Source: Halobacteriovorax sp.
GTDB lineage: Bacteria > Bdellovibrionota > Bacteriovoracia > Bacteriovoracales > Bacteriovoracaceae
Direction of reading: 5' to 3'
Assembly (NCBI GenBank): GCA_002720865.1
Contig: PBIO01000022.1
Span: 1 to 38,856 of the forward strand
Length of the DNA: 38,856 bases
Part shown: positions 2,910 to 27,759 of the stretch, one piece after another
Layout of the letters: every line of letters begins with the position of its first letter
Numbering within the stretch: the first letter of the stretch is position 1
Translations under genes and position numbers: made by a program
The notes under the pieces: model-generated
What the model saw: the letters and a program-made list of their open reading frames with translations, nothing else
Database searches by the model: none
Told to the model about the DNA's origin: nothing

Positions 2910-5687
2910 ATGGCATTAACGAGAGAAACACGAAGTCTTTCCATAAGCAATATGCCATACGTGCGTCCAACAAACCCTATCGGGGATTTTGCTCGTACAG
3001 TACAGCGTGATGCTGCACAGGAACTGAAAGAACTGTATGCCGAAGAAGATCGCATAACCGTAGCGGAAAGTGTTGCGTCAGTTTACGACAGGGCAAAAGA
3101 AATACAGGTATCTCAGGAAGGCGTTCCTGACTCAGCTGCAATGGCTGATGAATTGGGCAAATACACAAGAAAAATGCTTAAAGGTGTAAACCCTTCTGTG
3201 CAGGCTGAGTTAAAAGCACAGTTGCCGGGCATTATAAGCCCAATAGTAAATAAAACTGTAGATTTAGAGGTTGCGTACAATATTGATCAAAATGTTCAAG
3301 CAATTCAAATGGAGGTAGAAGAACTCAGACGCAGAGCGATAGACAATGTAGGCGAAAATTTTGACAGTGAGCAGTTTCAAAACGAACATTATGCAAAACT
3401 GACTGCGTTGCAGGAAAGGTTAAGAATTGCTTCTCAGGGAACAATACCGCAAGAGGTAATAAATAAACAATTTTCTGCACAAAGAATAGATTTTGCAACG
3501 GAAATAACGGCACGGCAATACGCGAGAGTTGCGGCAACAATGGGGCGAGCCGAGGCTGAAAAACTCCTGACTAAAAGAGCAGAGCAGTTTGCTAATCAGT
3601 TTACTTCCAAAAGAAATTTTGAGGGAATCGTCAGGGGCGTTTTGGAGCAAACAGATTTAGACGCAAAAATTAAAAAAAGCCACGCGAAATATGTTTTGGA
3701 TTTTGAAAAATTATCGTTTAATGAACAAAAACAGCGATTAGCGGAGGCAGAGGCATTTTTGCACCCGGCATTGTATGAAAAGCTGGCAGAGAAACATAGT
3801 GATGAAATGCAAATTGAGGCTACCAGCGACAAACAGCAGGGTCTTGAATCTTTAATTATAGAAAAAAGGAGAGGATGGCTTTCCTTTGAAGATATTAATG
3901 AGTTTTTTGACACACATCAACAATCGTGGAAAGGAGCAGACCGAAGAATTTTTAACAGTCTGAGGACTAGAGAACTGGGACGGTTTTACACACTTGAAAC
4001 AGCAGCCAAAAAAGGCGCTATAGATGCGGAGGAAATAAGGAATCAGGTAAAGCAAATGTCCGAACTTGAAGCCGCAGCAACAAATGGGGAGATAGCTGTA
4101 GCTCCTACTCACTTTTCTCACGGCACAGCGCTGTCCAAATCCCAACTAAAAAAAATAGAAGAACGTATTCTTGGTTACAAAAACGGTAAAATTGAACATG
4201 ATAACGTAACTTCTGGCAAAAAACAGCCTGAGAATAAAGACATATTGTGGTGGGAAAACTACACGGCTCGCAAAGTAAATGCAGCTATAGAAGAAGATGT
4301 ATTTAAAGACCCGATAAAAACAGAGGCTTTTTTTAAGGAAAATGTTTCTGAATGGTCACGTTATAAAAAACTGCCAAAAGCAATAGAGGGCTTGTTTGAT
4401 ATTAGAAAAGATGCAGCAACTTTAAAGTCATTAGCAAAACTAAAGCAGGATATTGAGATATACAATCTGGATAGCGCAAATATAGGTGCGGAGATTGTTT
4501 TACCGCAGAATATGCAAGTTAATGCATTGTTTGAGATTATAGACCCGTCAATGAGTGTTCAAGAAATAAATGATATTAAACAGACAATTTTTAATCCACT
4601 GTTTAAAGGTGATGCTAATGAAGCAATATCTGAGGCACAGAAGCTTGTAACTACGGTGGATGAAGACGGCGTTAATCTTGTTCAAAAAGTTATGCACGAA
4701 ATGGGGGCAGACGGAATCATTGCTTCTTTTGGTGCTGGACTGTTCAACAGTTGGGTGGGTCACTCAAGAACAGGCTCGTATGATTTTTTTGCAGTAATGA
4801 ACGATAAACTTCATCTAATCACAAAGGGGATGGGAAAACTTGGTTTTTGGAACGCATTAACAGCAGGATTAGACAGCCAGATGATTACAATGTCAGAATC
4901 GGCGCGGAGAAAAGTTCAGAGAGAGCTGTCTAAAGAGTTTCTTAAATTTGATAAGGGTCAAATTACCAATGAAGGGGCAATTAGAACTGTTTTAAATAAA
5001 CTAGGCTCCGTAAACGGCAGTTTGGGTTTTAGCAGTAATATGTATCAAAAAGACCAAAACAGTATGTATGTTCATAATCTTCCCCCGGAGCAGGTGTTAA
5101 AAGACCCAAGAGGAAATCAAGTTTCTGGAAAGCAAATTGCAATATCAATGATTGAAAAGGCAGACCAGATATTAAGAAAAATGGATGAAGCGGCAACAGG
5201 GAAAACGATGTCCGATCAGTGGTTTCGTTACAAATCGCAATACCGTCGAGGCAGGGATAACGCAGTAGATGGACAAGGGGAAATTGATTTAGGGCTACTG
5301 TATAAAGCAGGCAGATTAAAGTTAATGAACGGGCAACAGTTTCGTGGCCCTGACGGGCAAATGCAAACAACCTACGAAATGGTTATAATTGACCAACATA
5401 ACAATACACAAAAGTTATTTATTCCCGGTCGTGGCCCTCGTATTAATTTTTCCGACTCATTTGACGTAAGGCAGACTAGCGCTTCCAGAGCGATAATGGA
5501 AAAAGGTCATGGATTCGGAAGCGAAGCTATAGGTACGGGGTGGCTTGATATTGGAGGCGGTGGTCTGGCAGGAAAAAGCGCTGGCAAACGATTGGATGCT
5601 ATAGCTAAAAACCGTCCTATTAAACAGGGTTTTGGTTTAACAAACAATCCTGATGACTCTGTAGACCCGGCAATGGATACGCAATGA
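2910..5687 (+). CDS. Large internal virion (ejection) protein, gp15-like
   Basis: A 925-aa, largely helical, charged protein preceded by a good ribosome site (GAGGAAATA before ATG 2910). It fills the slot of T7 gp15 (about 750 aa), an inner-core protein that enters the cell envelope with the DNA. Long stretches around residues 30-130 and 130-320 look coiled coil; a less polar zone lies around residues 590-660. I see no peptidase or lysozyme signature. The stop overlaps the next start (ATGA at 5684). Function is inferred from order and size. Confidence 0.65.
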   Translation: MALTRETRSLSISNMPYVRPTNPIGDFARTVQRDAAQELKELYAEEDRITVAESVASVYDRAKEIQVSQEGVPDSAAMADELGKYTRKMLKGVNPSVQAELKAQLPGIISPIVNKTVDLEVAYNIDQNVQAIQMEVEELRRRAIDNVGENFDSEQFQNEHYAKLTALQERLRIASQGTIPQEVINKQFSAQRIDFATEITARQYARVAATMGRAEAEKLLTKRAEQFANQFTSKRNFEGIVRGVLEQTDLDAKIKKSHAKYVLDFEKLSFNEQKQRLAEAEAFLHPALYEKLAEKHSDEMQIEATSDKQQGLESLIIEKRRGWLSFEDINEFFDTHQQSWKGADRRIFNSLRTRELGRFYTLETAAKKGAIDAEEIRNQVKQMSELEAAATNGEIAVAPTHFSHGTALSKSQLKKIEERILGYKNGKIEHDNVTSGKKQPENKDILWWENYTARKVNAAIEEDVFKDPIKTEAFFKENVSEWSRYKKLPKAIEGLFDIRKDAATLKSLAKLKQDIEIYNLDSANIGAEIVLPQNMQVNALFEIIDPSMSVQEINDIKQTIFNPLFKGDANEAISEAQKLVTTVDEDGVNLVQKVMHEMGADGIIASFGAGLFNSWVGHSRTGSYDFFAVMNDKLHLITKGMGKLGFWNALTAGLDSQMITMSESARRKVQRELSKEFLKFDKGQITNEGAIRTVLNKLGSVNGSLGFSSNMYQKDQNSMYVHNLPPEQVLKDPRGNQVSGKQIAISMIEKADQILRKMDEAATGKTMSDQWFRYKSQYRRGRDNAVDGQGEIDLGLLYKAGRLKLMNGQQFRGPDGQMQTTYEMVIIDQHNNTQKLFIPGRGPRINFSDSFDVRQTSASRAIMEKGHGFGSEAIGTGWLDIGGGGLAGKSAGKRLDAIAKNRPIKQGFGLTNNPDDSVDPAMDTQ

Positions 5688-19458: not shown

Positions 19459-19650
19459 TTAATGGTACGTTGGACGGTCAAAAATAGGCGTTCCGTCCTC
19501 AGAAACGTCAATTTTTACGACTTCTTCCATAGTTATGAAGTCTTCGACGTTCAAACCGCATAGTGCTAGGGCGCTGTAGTAGTCATTTGCGATTAAAACA
19601 AACTTTTGAGGCTCTTTTTCTTGTCCGTAAGTCACCATAAAGTATGCCAT
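19459..19650 (-). CDS. Hypothetical 63-aa protein coupled to the endolysin
   Basis: ATG 19650 overlaps the endolysin stop (TGATG). The product is a small acidic protein beginning MAYFMVTYGQEKEPQKFVLI, with a helix 'DYYSALALCGLNVEDFI' and a C-terminal strand pair. It resembles small one-domain alpha/beta phage proteins but matches no family I recognise. Tight coupling suggests its amount is tied to endolysin production. Confidence 0.6.
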   Translation of the reverse strand: MAYFMVTYGQEKEPQKFVLIANDYYSALALCGLNVEDFITMEEVVKIDVSEDGTPIFDRPTYH

Positions 19651-20279
19651 CAATGCAATATCGGCCCCTTGAAGTTGTCTGCTTCACCTACACATAACTG
19701 CCATTCGTCTTCTAGCTGGTGAGCAAGATAAGAAATATCCATTAAACGGCGAGACCATCCAAGCATAAACGACTCTTTGTATTTCCTGCCGTATCGCTCC
19801 ATACGCAAAGCGCAAAATTCTGTTAGCAGTTGACGGAAATTGTAATTTCTAACAGAAGTTTCCTGATATATGTTGATTGCTTGCTCAGTTTTTGAGCCGT
19901 AGATGCCGTCTACCACAAGAGTAGGTGTTCCAAAATCGCCCCTGTTGAGCGCAGTTTGAAGCATTTTGACTGCAGCCGTTGGGCCTTGATTAACAGAGCA
20001 GTCATAAAAGGCAAGAGCTAAACCCGGAGACCACAAATACAAATTGTAGGGTTTGCCGTATTTATCGTACAAAATGAGATCAATCTGTTCCTCATCTAAA
20101 GACATAATTTCTTCTTGTGTCATATTATTGTAGTTTGCAGCGAGGCCTCTTCTTGTAAACCCTCCGGGGTCATCCGGGTGGTGTACAACATTTCCTTCCC
20201 ACTTCGCTACTTGCTTTTGTATATAGGGTAAGACAGTGCGGAAAAAGATGTGTGAATACTGCGATGCGTTATCATCCAT
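19650..20279 (-). CDS. Endolysin, GH108 muramidase with C-terminal peptidoglycan-binding region
   Basis: A 209-aa protein. The GH108 signature is plain: WEGNVVHHPDDPGGFTRRGL with the catalytic Glu at residue 28, followed by 'YDCSVNQGPTAAVKMLQTAL' and a 'TLVVDGIYGSKTEQAI' segment typical of the family's PG-binding_3 region. It cleaves the glycan backbone of peptidoglycan. No signal peptide, so export would need a holin. ATG 20279 has GGAGG nine bases upstream and overlaps the two-TM gene before it by eight bases; an upstream extension to 20354 is Cys-rich and rejected. It lies in the leftward operon, far from the spanins. Confidence 0.92.
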   Translation of the reverse strand: MDDNASQYSHIFFRTVLPYIQKQVAKWEGNVVHHPDDPGGFTRRGLAANYNNMTQEEIMSLDEEQIDLILYDKYGKPYNLYLWSPGLALAFYDCSVNQGPTAAVKMLQTALNRGDFGTPTLVVDGIYGSKTEQAINIYQETSVRNYNFRQLLTEFCALRMERYGRKYKESFMLGWSRRLMDISYLAHQLEDEWQLCVGEADNFKGPILH

Positions 20280-20487
20280 TTGATTGTTCCTCCGTGAACC
20301 ATTTGCGTGTGATATAGCCCGACAACTTATAGTTGAGCCACATAAACAATGCAAAAATCGGGAAAGCGAAGTAAGAAGTTACAAGGGTCGGATTAACCGC
20401 GCCCATCATACATACTACAAGAGCGAGCAGTACAGTTATAACGTGAAGGCACATAAATACGCCGACACGGGCAGAAAAAATTCGCAT
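20272..20487 (-). CDS. Two-TM membrane protein, holin candidate
   Basis: A 71-aa protein with two hydrophobic segments (residues ~8-30 and ~34-53), a short turn between them and a charged C-terminus (TRKWFTEEQSNG). This matches class II holin topology, and the gene overlaps the endolysin start. GAAAGGTGTCCT precedes ATG. The pairing with the endolysin is the strongest argument; pore formation itself is inferred. A one-TM rival candidate is at 12274-12495. Confidence 0.6.
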   Translation of the reverse strand: MRIFSARVGVFMCLHVITVLLALVVCMMGAVNPTLVTSYFAFPIFALFMWLNYKLSGYITRKWFTEEQSNG

Positions 20488-20498
20488 AGGACACCTTT

Positions 20499-20696
20499 CT
20501 AATCGTCAAGTTCATTTGCACGATCACCTTGGCAACACTCATCTATATTTTTACCGCAGGGGCATTGTAGATGACCGTGTACATAGTGCGGTTGATCGGA
20601 TGCATTCATCAGCCGACCGCATTTATCGCATACTGTTCCGTCTATTGGTGTGTCCATGCGGAGAACATACAAAGAGACAGTGAATTTTGTACGCAC
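20499..20696 (-). CDS. Small zinc-ribbon-like protein, uncertain start
   Basis: The C-terminal ~50 residues carry Cys-Asp-Lys-Cys-Gly, later QCPCGKNIDECC and a His-rich 'HYVHGHL' stretch: a plausible zinc ribbon, with an acidic end (ANELDD). The start is unclear. GTG 20696 would overlap the upstream stop (TAATGTG) as at many junctions here; ATG 20657 has no ribosome site; a longer frame runs to GTG 20768. I give the coupled GTG. Function unknown. Confidence 0.5.
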   Translation of the reverse strand: MRTKFTVSLYVLRMDTPIDGTVCDKCGRLMNASDQPHYVHGHLQCPCGKNIDECCQGDRANELDD

Positions 20697-20697
20697 A

Positions 20698-20982
20698 TTA
20701 TCTTGGGGGTACAGCGACCCATTTAAGACGCCAGTTGTCAAACGTCGGTCTTTCTGATCCGATGACACGTTTTAGCAGAAACAGCACTACAGATACGACT
20801 GCACCGCCGACAACACCTGCCATCATTCCAGCAAACGTCCCTGCAAACATAGCGAGCAGTGCCATTGTAACAATAATGTCTATAGCGACATCAAAGTACA
20901 GGACTCGTTTGATATTCAGTTTGGCGAGCAAAAAGAGCATACCGCAAGCAGCAAGCAAACCGCATATAAGCATAAAAAACAT
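20698..20982 (-). CDS. Membrane protein, about three TM segments
   Basis: A 94-aa hydrophobic protein: segments at residues ~2-20, ~30-50 and ~52-70, the middle ones rich in Met, Ala and Gly ('MALLAMFAGTFAGMMAGVVG'). A basic, aromatic C-terminal tail would lie in the cytoplasm. It starts on a TAATG overlap with the upstream gene. No known family; one of several small membrane proteins in this operon. Confidence 0.6.
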   Translation of the reverse strand: MFFMLICGLLAACGMLFLLAKLNIKRVLYFDVAIDIIVTMALLAMFAGTFAGMMAGVVGGAVVSVVLFLLKRVIGSERPTFDNWRLKWVAVPPR

Positions 20983-25111: not shown

Positions 25112-25540
25112 GTGAGCGATGTAACGGAGTTCAGAGCGCAGACAGCGGAAACACAGCGTACATTAGATGACATAGGTAAGTCATTAACTCCTTTCCAGCG
25201 ACGGTTCGCGGATGTCATGTCAATCGGTAACGTGCGTAGTCGAAGCGAAGCAGTAAGACTAGCAGGAAGTAAGGCTAAACGGCCTAACTCAGTAGCACAT
25301 AAGCTGATGCAAAACACAGTGATATTGGAGTACATAAGACACGCAACGATGTCTAGGCTAGGTACTGATATGGTATCCAAGGCAGTACAGACGATAGATG
25401 ATCTTATGACAACCGCAGATGAGGACAAAGTGAGATTCGCTGCAGCCAAGGATACCTTAGACCGTATGGGATTAAGGACAGCAACCAAGAGTCATGTACA
25501 TCACACAGGGGGAGTGAGTGTCAATATAGACTTGGGCTAG
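25112..25540 (+). CDS. terS: Terminase small subunit
   Basis: A 142-aa protein with the Terminase_2 layout. An N-terminal HTH region 'LTPFQRRFADVMSIGN', 'RSRSEAVRLAGSKAKRP' and 'LMQNTVILEYIR' matches the DNA-recognition domain. The central helix 'FAAAKDTLDRMGLRT' and the C-terminal GGVSVNIDLG are typical of small terminases. It recognises the packaging site and recruits the large subunit. GTG 25112 follows a purine-rich GAGAGAAGAAG. It is placed about 6 kb before the large subunit instead of next to it. Confidence 0.85.
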   Translation: MSDVTEFRAQTAETQRTLDDIGKSLTPFQRRFADVMSIGNVRSRSEAVRLAGSKAKRPNSVAHKLMQNTVILEYIRHATMSRLGTDMVSKAVQTIDDLMTTADEDKVRFAAAKDTLDRMGLRTATKSHVHHTGGVSVNIDLG

Positions 25541-25685: not shown

Positions 25686-25889
25686 ATGTCTATTGACAGT
25701 GTATATCAAATACTTGTGCAGGACTCTGCAGGAAGGGATATATATGTTCCTTGGAGGTCTACACCCCACCTAAAGCACGTAGAAGAACATGATTATCCTT
25801 CTTCTAAAAAAGCAGACAACCTAGTTCCGACCAGACCAGCGCCCCCGATAGATACTAATCGCGGTACTAACTTAGACCTCTTGGCGTGA
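25686..25889 (+). CDS. Hypothetical 67-aa protein
   Basis: Begins MSIDSVYQILVQDSAGRDIY, is polar and Pro-rich, and ends in Leu-Asp-Leu-Leu-Ala; likely partly unstructured. The upstream TTGGATTCCTT is a weak ribosome site. It lies between the small terminase and the MscS-like gene in one rightward transcript. No family recognised. Confidence 0.5.
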   Translation: MSIDSVYQILVQDSAGRDIYVPWRSTPHLKHVEEHDYPSSKKADNLVPTRPAPPIDTNRGTNLDLLA

Positions 25890-25893
25890 TTCC

Positions 25894-26226
25894 GTGGAAC
25901 TGACCGAGCTTAATAAAATTTCCTTTGATATAGCTGAACTGGCTACGCCTTTGATTGGTATTAGTATAGCTATGCTGTTCGGCTTTGCGCTGAAAGACCT
26001 GATTACAAATACCATATACGGGGTTAAGTTTATCTGCGCCGAGCATTGGGCTGCAGGGCAGGAAGTGATTTTAGAGGGAAAGAAGGCCAGAATAATAAAA
26101 GTGGGTTTTTACGAAACCGTTTTCCAAGTAGAGTGTCCTAACGGTGCTGTTCTTTGGCGGTACATTTCCAATACAAATCTTGCCAACATAGATATTGCCA
26201 GAGTAATACGTGAGAGCAATGAGTAA
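25894..26226 (+). CDS. MscS-like mini membrane protein
   Basis: A 110-aa protein with one TM helix (residues ~16-36, LATPLIGISIAMLFGFAL) running into a pattern seen in mechanosensitive MscS channels: GFALKDLITNTIYGVKF (the pore-helix G..L..L..N...G signature), then GQEVILEGKKARIIKVGFYE (the beta-domain G..V...G..G.V..I motif), 'TVFQVECPNGAVLWRYISN' and 'TNLANIDIARVI'. It has only the pore helix and beta domain, so it is a minimal version; channel function is inferred. The start is GTG 25894 with a weak site; ATT-GTG-rich late promoter motif begins at its stop. Confidence 0.6.
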   Translation: MELTELNKISFDIAELATPLIGISIAMLFGFALKDLITNTIYGVKFICAEHWAAGQEVILEGKKARIIKVGFYETVFQVECPNGAVLWRYISNTNLANIDIARVIRESNE

Positions 26227-26286: not shown

Positions 26287-27759
26287 GTGGCTAAACAGAT
26301 AATTGACAATCTTGATCCCGGTACGCTTGACGGCGACAGTCTTTTTCAAGCTGCGGAAAAGATTAATGCAAACTTCGCGGAAATATACAATACACTAGGC
26401 GACGGAAACACTATTACTCCGGGCGGTATAGGCAATATTGCCAATGGTTTGATCGTGGCTATTGGTGCAGGGCAGTTTATAGGCCGTGAGATTGTATCCC
26501 AAACAGCAAGTATTACCATCACCAATGGCACTGGGTTAGCTGGCAACCCCACTATAGATTTAACAAACTCTGGTGTTGTTGCCGGAACTTATTCGGAACA
26601 TGGACTTACCGTTAGTGCGCAGGGAATTATAACAGGGATTGCAACTCCGCAGTTTTTAACTGACGCTCAAACTGCTTCTACCACTGCTGTTGCTGCGGCT
26701 GCTACGGCTTCTGCAGATGTTGCAACAATAGGAACAAGCCTTGCTGATGCCCAGACGGCAGCTACAAGTGCGCAGACTTCTGCAAATAGCGCAAGTACGG
26801 ATGCTGGCACGGCCTCTACCGACGCATCGACCGCAAGTACGGCTGCAGCCAGTGCTACGGCAAGCGCGACATCGGCTACAGCAAGCGAGGCATCGGCCAC
26901 AGCTTCGGCAACCTCTGCCACTGCGTCAGCGTCAACAGCGACAGCTGCTGCAACTACAGCAACAAATGCCGTAAACAGCATAGGGACATCAGTAACAGAC
27001 GCCCAAACAGCAGCCACTAGCGCCGAAAACTCATGGGACAGCTTTGATGACCGTTATCTAGGCGCAAAGTCCAGCGCTCCCTCAGTTGACAATGACGGCG
27101 ATGCGCTTATTACAGGTGCGTTATACTTCGATAGCACAGCAGATGAGATGAGGGTGTACAATGGGAGCAGTTGGGCTGCTGCAGGAAGTGCAATAAACGG
27201 AACAACAAACAGAAATACATATACAGCTACCGCAAACCAGACAACTTTTGCTTCAGTATATGATGTTGGTTTTGTTGATGTGTACCTAAACGGCTTAAAG
27301 CTGATGCCAGCCGATTTCACCGCAACATCAGGTACAGATATTGTGCTTGCGTCAGGCGCTGCTTTAAACGACACAGTAGATATTGTTGGTTACGGCGCTT
27401 TTGCTGTTGCAAACACATTAACTGAAACGCAATCAGATGCTAAATATGCTCAGTTGTCTAATAATTTGAGTGATTTAGCCAGTGCGAGTACAGCGAGAAC
27501 AAATTTAGGCTTGGCTGCAGTAGCGTCCAGCGGAAGCTATAGCGATTTAACAGGAACGCCGTCAGCTGCAAATAATATTTCCGGCGGTACGGCAATGGGC
27601 GTATTGTATCAAAGCGCTACGGACACAACAGCGCATTTACCTGCTGGTTCATCTGGTCACATACTGCAAACCAATGGAACGGGATCAGCACCTACATGGG
27701 TTCCAAAATCATCTGTAGCGTCACCCACTGGCATAGCCAGTATAATGAAGTTTTCTTAG
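26287..27759 (+). CDS. Tail-fibre protein with Ala/Ser/Thr coiled region
   Basis: A 490-aa protein from GTG 26287. Residues ~75-125 carry one copy of the Gly-rich fibre repeat (GTGLAGNPTIDL, 'YSEHGLTVSAQGIITGI') also found in the main fibre. Residues ~125-245 are almost only Ala, Ser and Thr with a 3-4 and heptad-like rhythm, a trimeric stalk. Then come 'FDDRYLGAKSSAP', a 'GALYFDSTADEMRVYNGSSW' module and a C-terminal knob. It most likely forms a long shaft of a secondary fibre. Confidence 0.75.
   Translation: MAKQIIDNLDPGTLDGDSLFQAAEKINANFAEIYNTLGDGNTITPGGIGNIANGLIVAIGAGQFIGREIVSQTASITITNGTGLAGNPTIDLTNSGVVAGTYSEHGLTVSAQGIITGIATPQFLTDAQTASTTAVAAAATASADVATIGTSLADAQTAATSAQTSANSASTDAGTASTDASTASTAAASATASATSATASEASATASATSATASASTATAAATTATNAVNSIGTSVTDAQTAATSAENSWDSFDDRYLGAKSSAPSVDNDGDALITGALYFDSTADEMRVYNGSSWAAAGSAINGTTNRNTYTATANQTTFASVYDVGFVDVYLNGLKLMPADFTATSGTDIVLASGAALNDTVDIVGYGAFAVANTLTETQSDAKYAQLSNNLSDLASASTARTNLGLAAVASSGSYSDLTGTPSAANNISGGTAMGVLYQSATDTTAHLPAGSSGHILQTNGTGSAPTWVPKSSVASPTGIASIMKFS

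Follow-up and report, generated by a model that had tools for sequence, protein, structure and literature searches.

MscS, whose pore is lined by TM3, is a central model of membrane force sensing, and its minimal sufficient part is a question that TcMscS of Trypanosoma cruzi began to answer. TcMscS, which comprises TM2-TM3 and the beta domain, forms a heptameric, stretch-activated channel; pore lipids serve as its gate, and the beta domain completes the permeation path without a vestibule (PMC12334622). The paddles set the tension threshold in YnaI/MscS chimeras (PMC12375004). Viral counterparts have been described briefly. Three mechanosensitive-like proteins were reported from giant viruses, none of them shown to work (PMC6163359), MscL was counted among virus-encoded osmoregulation genes (PMC13288924), and gp51 of the Paraglaciecola phage PANV1 was noted for an HHpred match to MscS (PMC9239159). 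No phage family of single-helix MscS proteins was described in the literature that we searched, which included few subscription papers. Here we describe what sequence comparisons indicate to be such a family, new in that it would consist of the MscS pore module (TM3 plus beta domain) alone and previously unnamed.

The window, that is, the whole stretch of 38,856 nucleotides analyzed here, is one entire contig (C22) of a 4.9-Mb genome assembly. It is a podovirus-like contig of a marine phage on which genes for the terminase large subunit, a head-tail adaptor, the major head protein, tail and internal virion proteins, an endolysin and recombination were recognized. By the large terminase, the nearest named phage is Pelagibacter phage Hodr, at 57% identity, followed by Burkholderia phage BcepC6B at 43%. 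The gene of interest, here called the mini-MscS gene (25894..26226, + strand), starts with GTG and encodes a 110-aa protein that profile comparisons and alignments describe as a TM3-like helix plus an MscS beta domain. Within the late + strand block, it is flanked upstream by the gene for the terminase small subunit (TerS; 25112..25540, +; PHROG phrog_2538, E 5.5e-08) and downstream, after a 60-base gap, by a tail-fibre gene (26287..27759, +; PHROG phrog_38058, E 8.5e-29). An earlier sequence-only reading of this DNA had given the same reading frame and the same flanking genes, and both were confirmed. Between TerS and the mini-MscS gene lies a 67-aa ORF (25686..25889, +) with no family match and no evident hydrophobic helix; in the L011 and L122 phages, the 150-base interval between the two genes has no counterpart of this ORF. 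Promoter and terminator scans around the mini-MscS gene yielded sites no more numerous than in shuffles.

Close relatives of the 110-aa protein (85-99% amino-acid identity) are encoded on seven IMG/VR contigs and on L122, a contig that binning had placed in a Neomarinimicrobiota MAG from the Red Sea. In comparisons with these relatives, synonymous changes far exceeded amino-acid changes (45 vs 2 for L001, 51 vs 4 for L002, and 46.7 vs 17.3 for L004). Thus, the ORF is a real gene under strong purifying selection. The dN/dS values (~0.006-0.05 where computable) are only rough because dS is near or beyond saturation. The gene is accessory, since it is missing from the close relative L100 (TerS 71% identical), in which the fibre gene follows 179 bases past TerS with no gene between. 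In a search of 80 terminase-related viral loci, it was seen in close relatives only. A broken full-length MscS was excluded by the purifying selection, by the similar protein length in ~30 contigs, and by the proximity of the fibre gene, which leaves no room for a vestibule.

When searched singly, the 110-aa protein matched no Pfam, NCBIfam or PHROGs family. A short NCBIfam VraH match (16 residues, E 0.013-0.037) was far under the cut-off and was dismissed. Against PDB sequences, five of six matches were MscS channels, none of them significant (E 0.26 and worse). Profiles gave clearer results. The eight-member close family aligned to 17 cellular MscS proteins, taken from the host and from relatives of the host (hhalign 91%, E 1e-6), with a score of 45; the highest score among 100 column-shuffled controls was 19.7, and reversing the alignment gave 12.4. 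With a viral-only family of 19 members, the comparison to the same cellular proteins reached 97% (E 1e-10). The Pfam family of the MscS beta domain, PF00924 (MS_channel_2nd), was matched by 15 of these 19 members scanned singly (best E 4.8e-07). Four of five individually scanned members passed its cut-off of 20.2 bits (L154, 29.1; L164, 30.2; L169, 21.6; the second copy in L158, 24.1), and L175 scored 16.5 bits. The viral-only profile matched 29 PDB sequences, all of MscS type (best E 0.014), and the strongest PDB matches of a mixed viral-cellular profile were the 171-aa MscS entries 9sdg and 9seh. On these comparisons, homology of the 110-aa protein to MscS is well supported. The MscS-like identity proposed in the sequence-only reading therefore holds, and a profile search lacking an MscS match was encountered solely for the single 110-aa sequence in Pfam.

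The alignment to E. coli MscS (EcMscS) and the family alignments suggest which parts are kept. Residues 13-34 would form a TM3a-like pore helix (25930..25995, +), as judged by hydropathy, the positive-inside pattern and alignments; its end, GFALK, pairs with EcMscS around residues 101-112. Residues 35-50, DLITNTIYGVKFICAE (25996..26043, +), correspond to a TM3b-like interface helix according to the EcMscS alignment, the family alignments and the structure model. An MscS-type beta domain (residues 52-105; 26047..26208, +) is indicated by the family alignments and the structure model, along with the PF00924 matches in relatives. It carries the viral-family motif KKARI and an N..L end (NTNLANID), and beta strands are predicted at residues 57-60, 63-70, 74-80 and 86-92. 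The stretch GFALKDLITNTIYG pairs with EcMscS GLALQGSLSNLAAG, so that TM3 stands directly before the beta domain and the small/kink positions are kept (G30 with G108, N39 with N117, and G43 with G121). M27 and F31 pair with L105 and L109, which we take to be the channel gate of EcMscS. By this residue pairing, the protein begins approximately at the start of TM3 and stops where the beta domain stops.

The rest of MscS has no counterpart in the protein. It contains a single hydrophobic stretch (residues 13-31; best 19-residue Kyte-Doolittle mean 1.84), preceded by only ~12 residues. PF21088, for the TM1/TM2 sensor paddle, and PF21082, for the C-terminal alpha/beta vestibule, were unmatched in all 19 viral members, and the protein ends with the beta domain. 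The sequence-only reading had seen one TM helix together with pore-helix and beta-domain signatures in a miniature MscS. The first two of these features are a single element, MscS TM3, and the protein is not a whole MscS reduced in size: it belongs to a viral family whose members comprise only TM3 and the beta domain. In all 19 viral members, 0-2 Lys/Arg residues precede the helix and 9-14 follow it. This charge pattern is consistent with an N-out/C-in orientation, as for MscS TM3, and with a cytoplasmic beta domain.

Among described channels, TcMscS (PDB 9bgq and relatives) offers the closest layout. Like the phage protein, it has the pore helix and the beta domain and no C-terminal alpha/beta vestibule, and VIA paired corresponding residues (Z 5.0). 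In contrast to the phage protein, which has TM3 only and is ~55 residues shorter, TcMscS carries an N helix and TM2 before TM3. Thus, the phage mini-MscS is smaller even than TcMscS. The two also differ in that TcMscS is a cellular protein whose channel activity is proven and whose structure has been solved as a heptamer. The alignment of E. coli and host-clade MscS with it begins at TM3a and runs almost to where the beta domain ends, but the phage protein lacks TM1/TM2 and the alpha/beta domain and has 110 aa as compared with 264-369 aa for the aligned host-clade proteins. The PDB contains a series of 171-aa chains named 'small-conductance mechanosensitive channel' (9sdg, 9seh, 9sdb, 9sed; seven chains per entry). 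Of these short MscS-type chains, 9sdg and 9seh have ~64 residues before the aligned part, and at least one more helix is therefore likely in them. PANV1 gp51, compared by description only, is likewise a tailed-phage protein with an HHpred MscS match and one doubtful TM helix. The putative MscS-like protein of an Aureococcus anophagefferens virus (261 aa; PMC6163359) is also virus encoded, but it has three predicted TM helices and a different architecture and belongs to a giant eukaryotic virus.

Structure prediction, which the sequence-only reading had proposed as a check, added little. AlphaFold2 with an 8-row alignment returned a long helix and beta strands with low confidence (mean pLDDT 57). 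With cellular MscS rows added, the mean pLDDT was 69, and this model is not independent support because those rows were in its alignment. The pTM of both models was 0.38-0.40, that is, moderate confidence at most. In Foldseek, the first 34 PDB matches were all MscS-type, but with E values of 0.03 and worse. VIA gave Z scores of 5-6.4 to MscS-type channels, interspersed with unrelated helices and small SH3-like/KOW beta domains. The structure comparison is thus consistent with MscS but too weak to stand alone, and for this reason the case for homology is based on sequence.

Scans of IMG/VR showed that viral contigs of 6.5-205 kb, with differing gene neighborhoods, encode further short proteins built in this way. 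An alignment that mixed viral and cellular sequences was used for the first scan, and two further scans followed. Together with the window and its close relatives, the family amounts to 31 genes on 30 distinct contigs, so that the phage relatives for which the sequence-only reading had proposed a search do exist; its view that such a gene is unusual also stands. Each of the 25 distinct viral proteins has 99-127 aa and the helix plus beta layout, ending at the beta domain. The same profile found 43 relatives of cellular size (240-894 aa), including L153 from a deposited Microcystis phage record. In a profile scan of 129 genomes drawn from the host's class, the frames detected outside the window were all longer (213-333 aa). 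A tblastn match (38% identity, E 9e-8 among candidates) and the alignment tie the window lineage to the wider viral family. No match was obtained when five family members were searched by tblastn against 50,697 deposited phage records, and neither the 110-aa protein nor its relatives belong to a named PHROGs phage family. Full-length MscS matches in phage records were set aside, most of them being bacterial sized, fragmentary or from unannotated records. In BFVD, the unnamed viral protein A0A516MLU7 (129 aa) matched the structure model (E 8.6e-05).

The KKARI motif is common to the beta domains of the viral proteins; outside the window lineage, it is mostly followed by [IV]R...KT.F, and a DFDVDD motif is conserved there. 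The pore helix is variable, and some members are without the GFALKD motif and G30. GFALKD[LF]I served as the scan pattern for some loci, L122 among them, so that motif identity there was partly selected for and is not independent evidence. A tree built from 25 viral sequences and 30 longer ones placed the viral proteins together on one side of a branch (support 97/98; present in 96% of bootstrap trees); the alignment had only 108 columns, and several branches were long. This tree excludes partial cellular rows, which an earlier tree had placed inside the viral group.

Two observations concern gene content in the wider family. The 32-kb viral contig L158 carries two mini-MscS genes nearly in tandem (4296-4643 and 5004-5333), the first of them very divergent; the two products may form a hetero-oligomer, or one gene may be a duplicate that is diverging. 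In L161 (8319-8588), L154 and L157, and one gene further away in L164, the mini-MscS gene is closely followed by a gene whose product, of 90-95 aa, contains several hydrophobic stretches and could act as a partner that provides the helices absent from the mini-MscS.

The reading that we favor, with a probability of about 0.5, is that the protein forms a small MscS-type pore in the inner membrane of the infected cell and acts late on turgor or lysis timing. Topology, oligomeric state, conductance, gating, timing and role are those that we infer for the phage protein as follows. TM3 would cross the host inner membrane with its N-terminus outside and its C-terminus inside, leaving the beta domain cytoplasmic. 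Several subunits, seven by analogy with MscS and TcMscS, would build a ring in which the TM3 helices line a small pore. In the absence of a TM1/TM2 paddle and a vestibule, gating would involve nothing beyond the pore helix and its lipids, as proposed for TcMscS. Made late, such a pore would respond to membrane stretch by leaking ions and small solutes. It would thereby keep the infected cell from bursting before the virions are ready, or it would help to set the moment at which the membrane collapses in lysis. Since the YnaI/MscS chimeras assign tension sensing to the paddles, a paddle-less phage protein may not gate on tension. Without a paddle, it may open at an unusual tension, leak always, need a partner or join host MscS rings. 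For the family as a whole, it is roughly an even bet that tailed phages encode paddle-less, vestibule-less MscS pores that act either as the simplest MscS-type channel known, with one helix per subunit, or by co-assembly with host MscS, through which the phage would gain control of the osmotic valves of the infected cell.

Co-assembly is the most interesting rival, with a small but real chance of being correct. In its explicit form, which we consider unlikely, the protein would insert into host MscS heptamers through its TM3 and beta-domain contacts and alter their gating, jamming the valve or holding it open. The parts that pack MscS subunits around the pore are the ones retained, the missing tension sensor and vestibule could come from a partner, and the assembly that holds this contig has six MscS genes. 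However, the family's own conserved motifs (KKARI, and DFDVDD outside the window lineage) and its own branch in the tree fit self-assembly better than assembly with many host partners. The host-clade MscS closest to the phage profile are L106 and its near relatives L105, L112, L115 and L120, which form a divergent MscS group. The L106 protein (1186-2031; ~280 aa) matches only the beta-domain Pfam family and not the N- or C-terminal MscS families.

We regard it as distinctly doubtful that the protein is a lysis protein, namely a pinholin or auxiliary holin whose unregulated small pore would dissipate the membrane potential as infection ends. A small protein with a single TM helix, encoded in the late gene block, would suit this function, and in the L161/L164 lineage an endolysin gene lies 0.7-1.1 kb upstream on the same strand. 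This lineage is the only one with an endolysin close by, and the mini-MscS has no holin PHROG match. In the window phage, by contrast, the endolysin gene (GH108 plus peptidoglycan-binding domain; 19650..20354, - strand) is 5.5 kb away on the other strand. Its start is overlapped by a separate holin candidate of 71 aa with two hydrophobic stretches (20272..20487, -), so designated from its hydropathy, and we therefore did not take the mini-MscS as the main holin of this phage. The related contig L100 is without the gene at the same site, which also argues against a lysis role. A beta domain is not known as a feature of holins.

It is improbable that the protein forms no pore at all, with TM3 as a mere anchor and the SH3-like beta domain binding a phage or host protein, e.g., in assembly or exclusion. 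The variable pore-helix sequence in part of the family, including the loss of G30 in the L166-L177 group, would fit such a function, as would the small SH3-like/KOW beta domains found at similar Z in the fold search. However, N39, G43 and the K34-D/N35 pair are largely conserved across the viral family alongside the beta domain, as expected if both keep their MscS role. Finally, a one-helix protein that resembles MscS by chance would account for the family matches missing from single searches and the PDB E values of at least 0.26, but it is contradicted by the shuffled and reversed controls, the relatives above the Pfam cut-off and the MscS-only PDB matches of the viral-only profile, and is extremely improbable.

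If pore forming, the phage proteins could be the smallest pores of the pressure-valve type known. As a natural family of pore helix plus beta domain, they offer a ready test of whether a paddle-free MscS assembles, conducts and gates. The family also points to phage control of host turgor and osmotic valves, of which the literature found gives passing mentions only.

Further small genes were noted in the window phage and its relatives. A small cysteine-rich protein (CxxC, zinc-ribbon-like) is encoded adjoining the endolysin (20499-20768, -). The same small gene directly follows the mini-MscS gene in L011 and L122 (10308-10487 in both) and so occupies differing positions among related phages. 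Also near the endolysin is the gene for a 94-aa membrane protein (20698-20982, -), weakly VTT-like (Pfam E 0.036, below the cut-off), which is a second lysis or envelope candidate.
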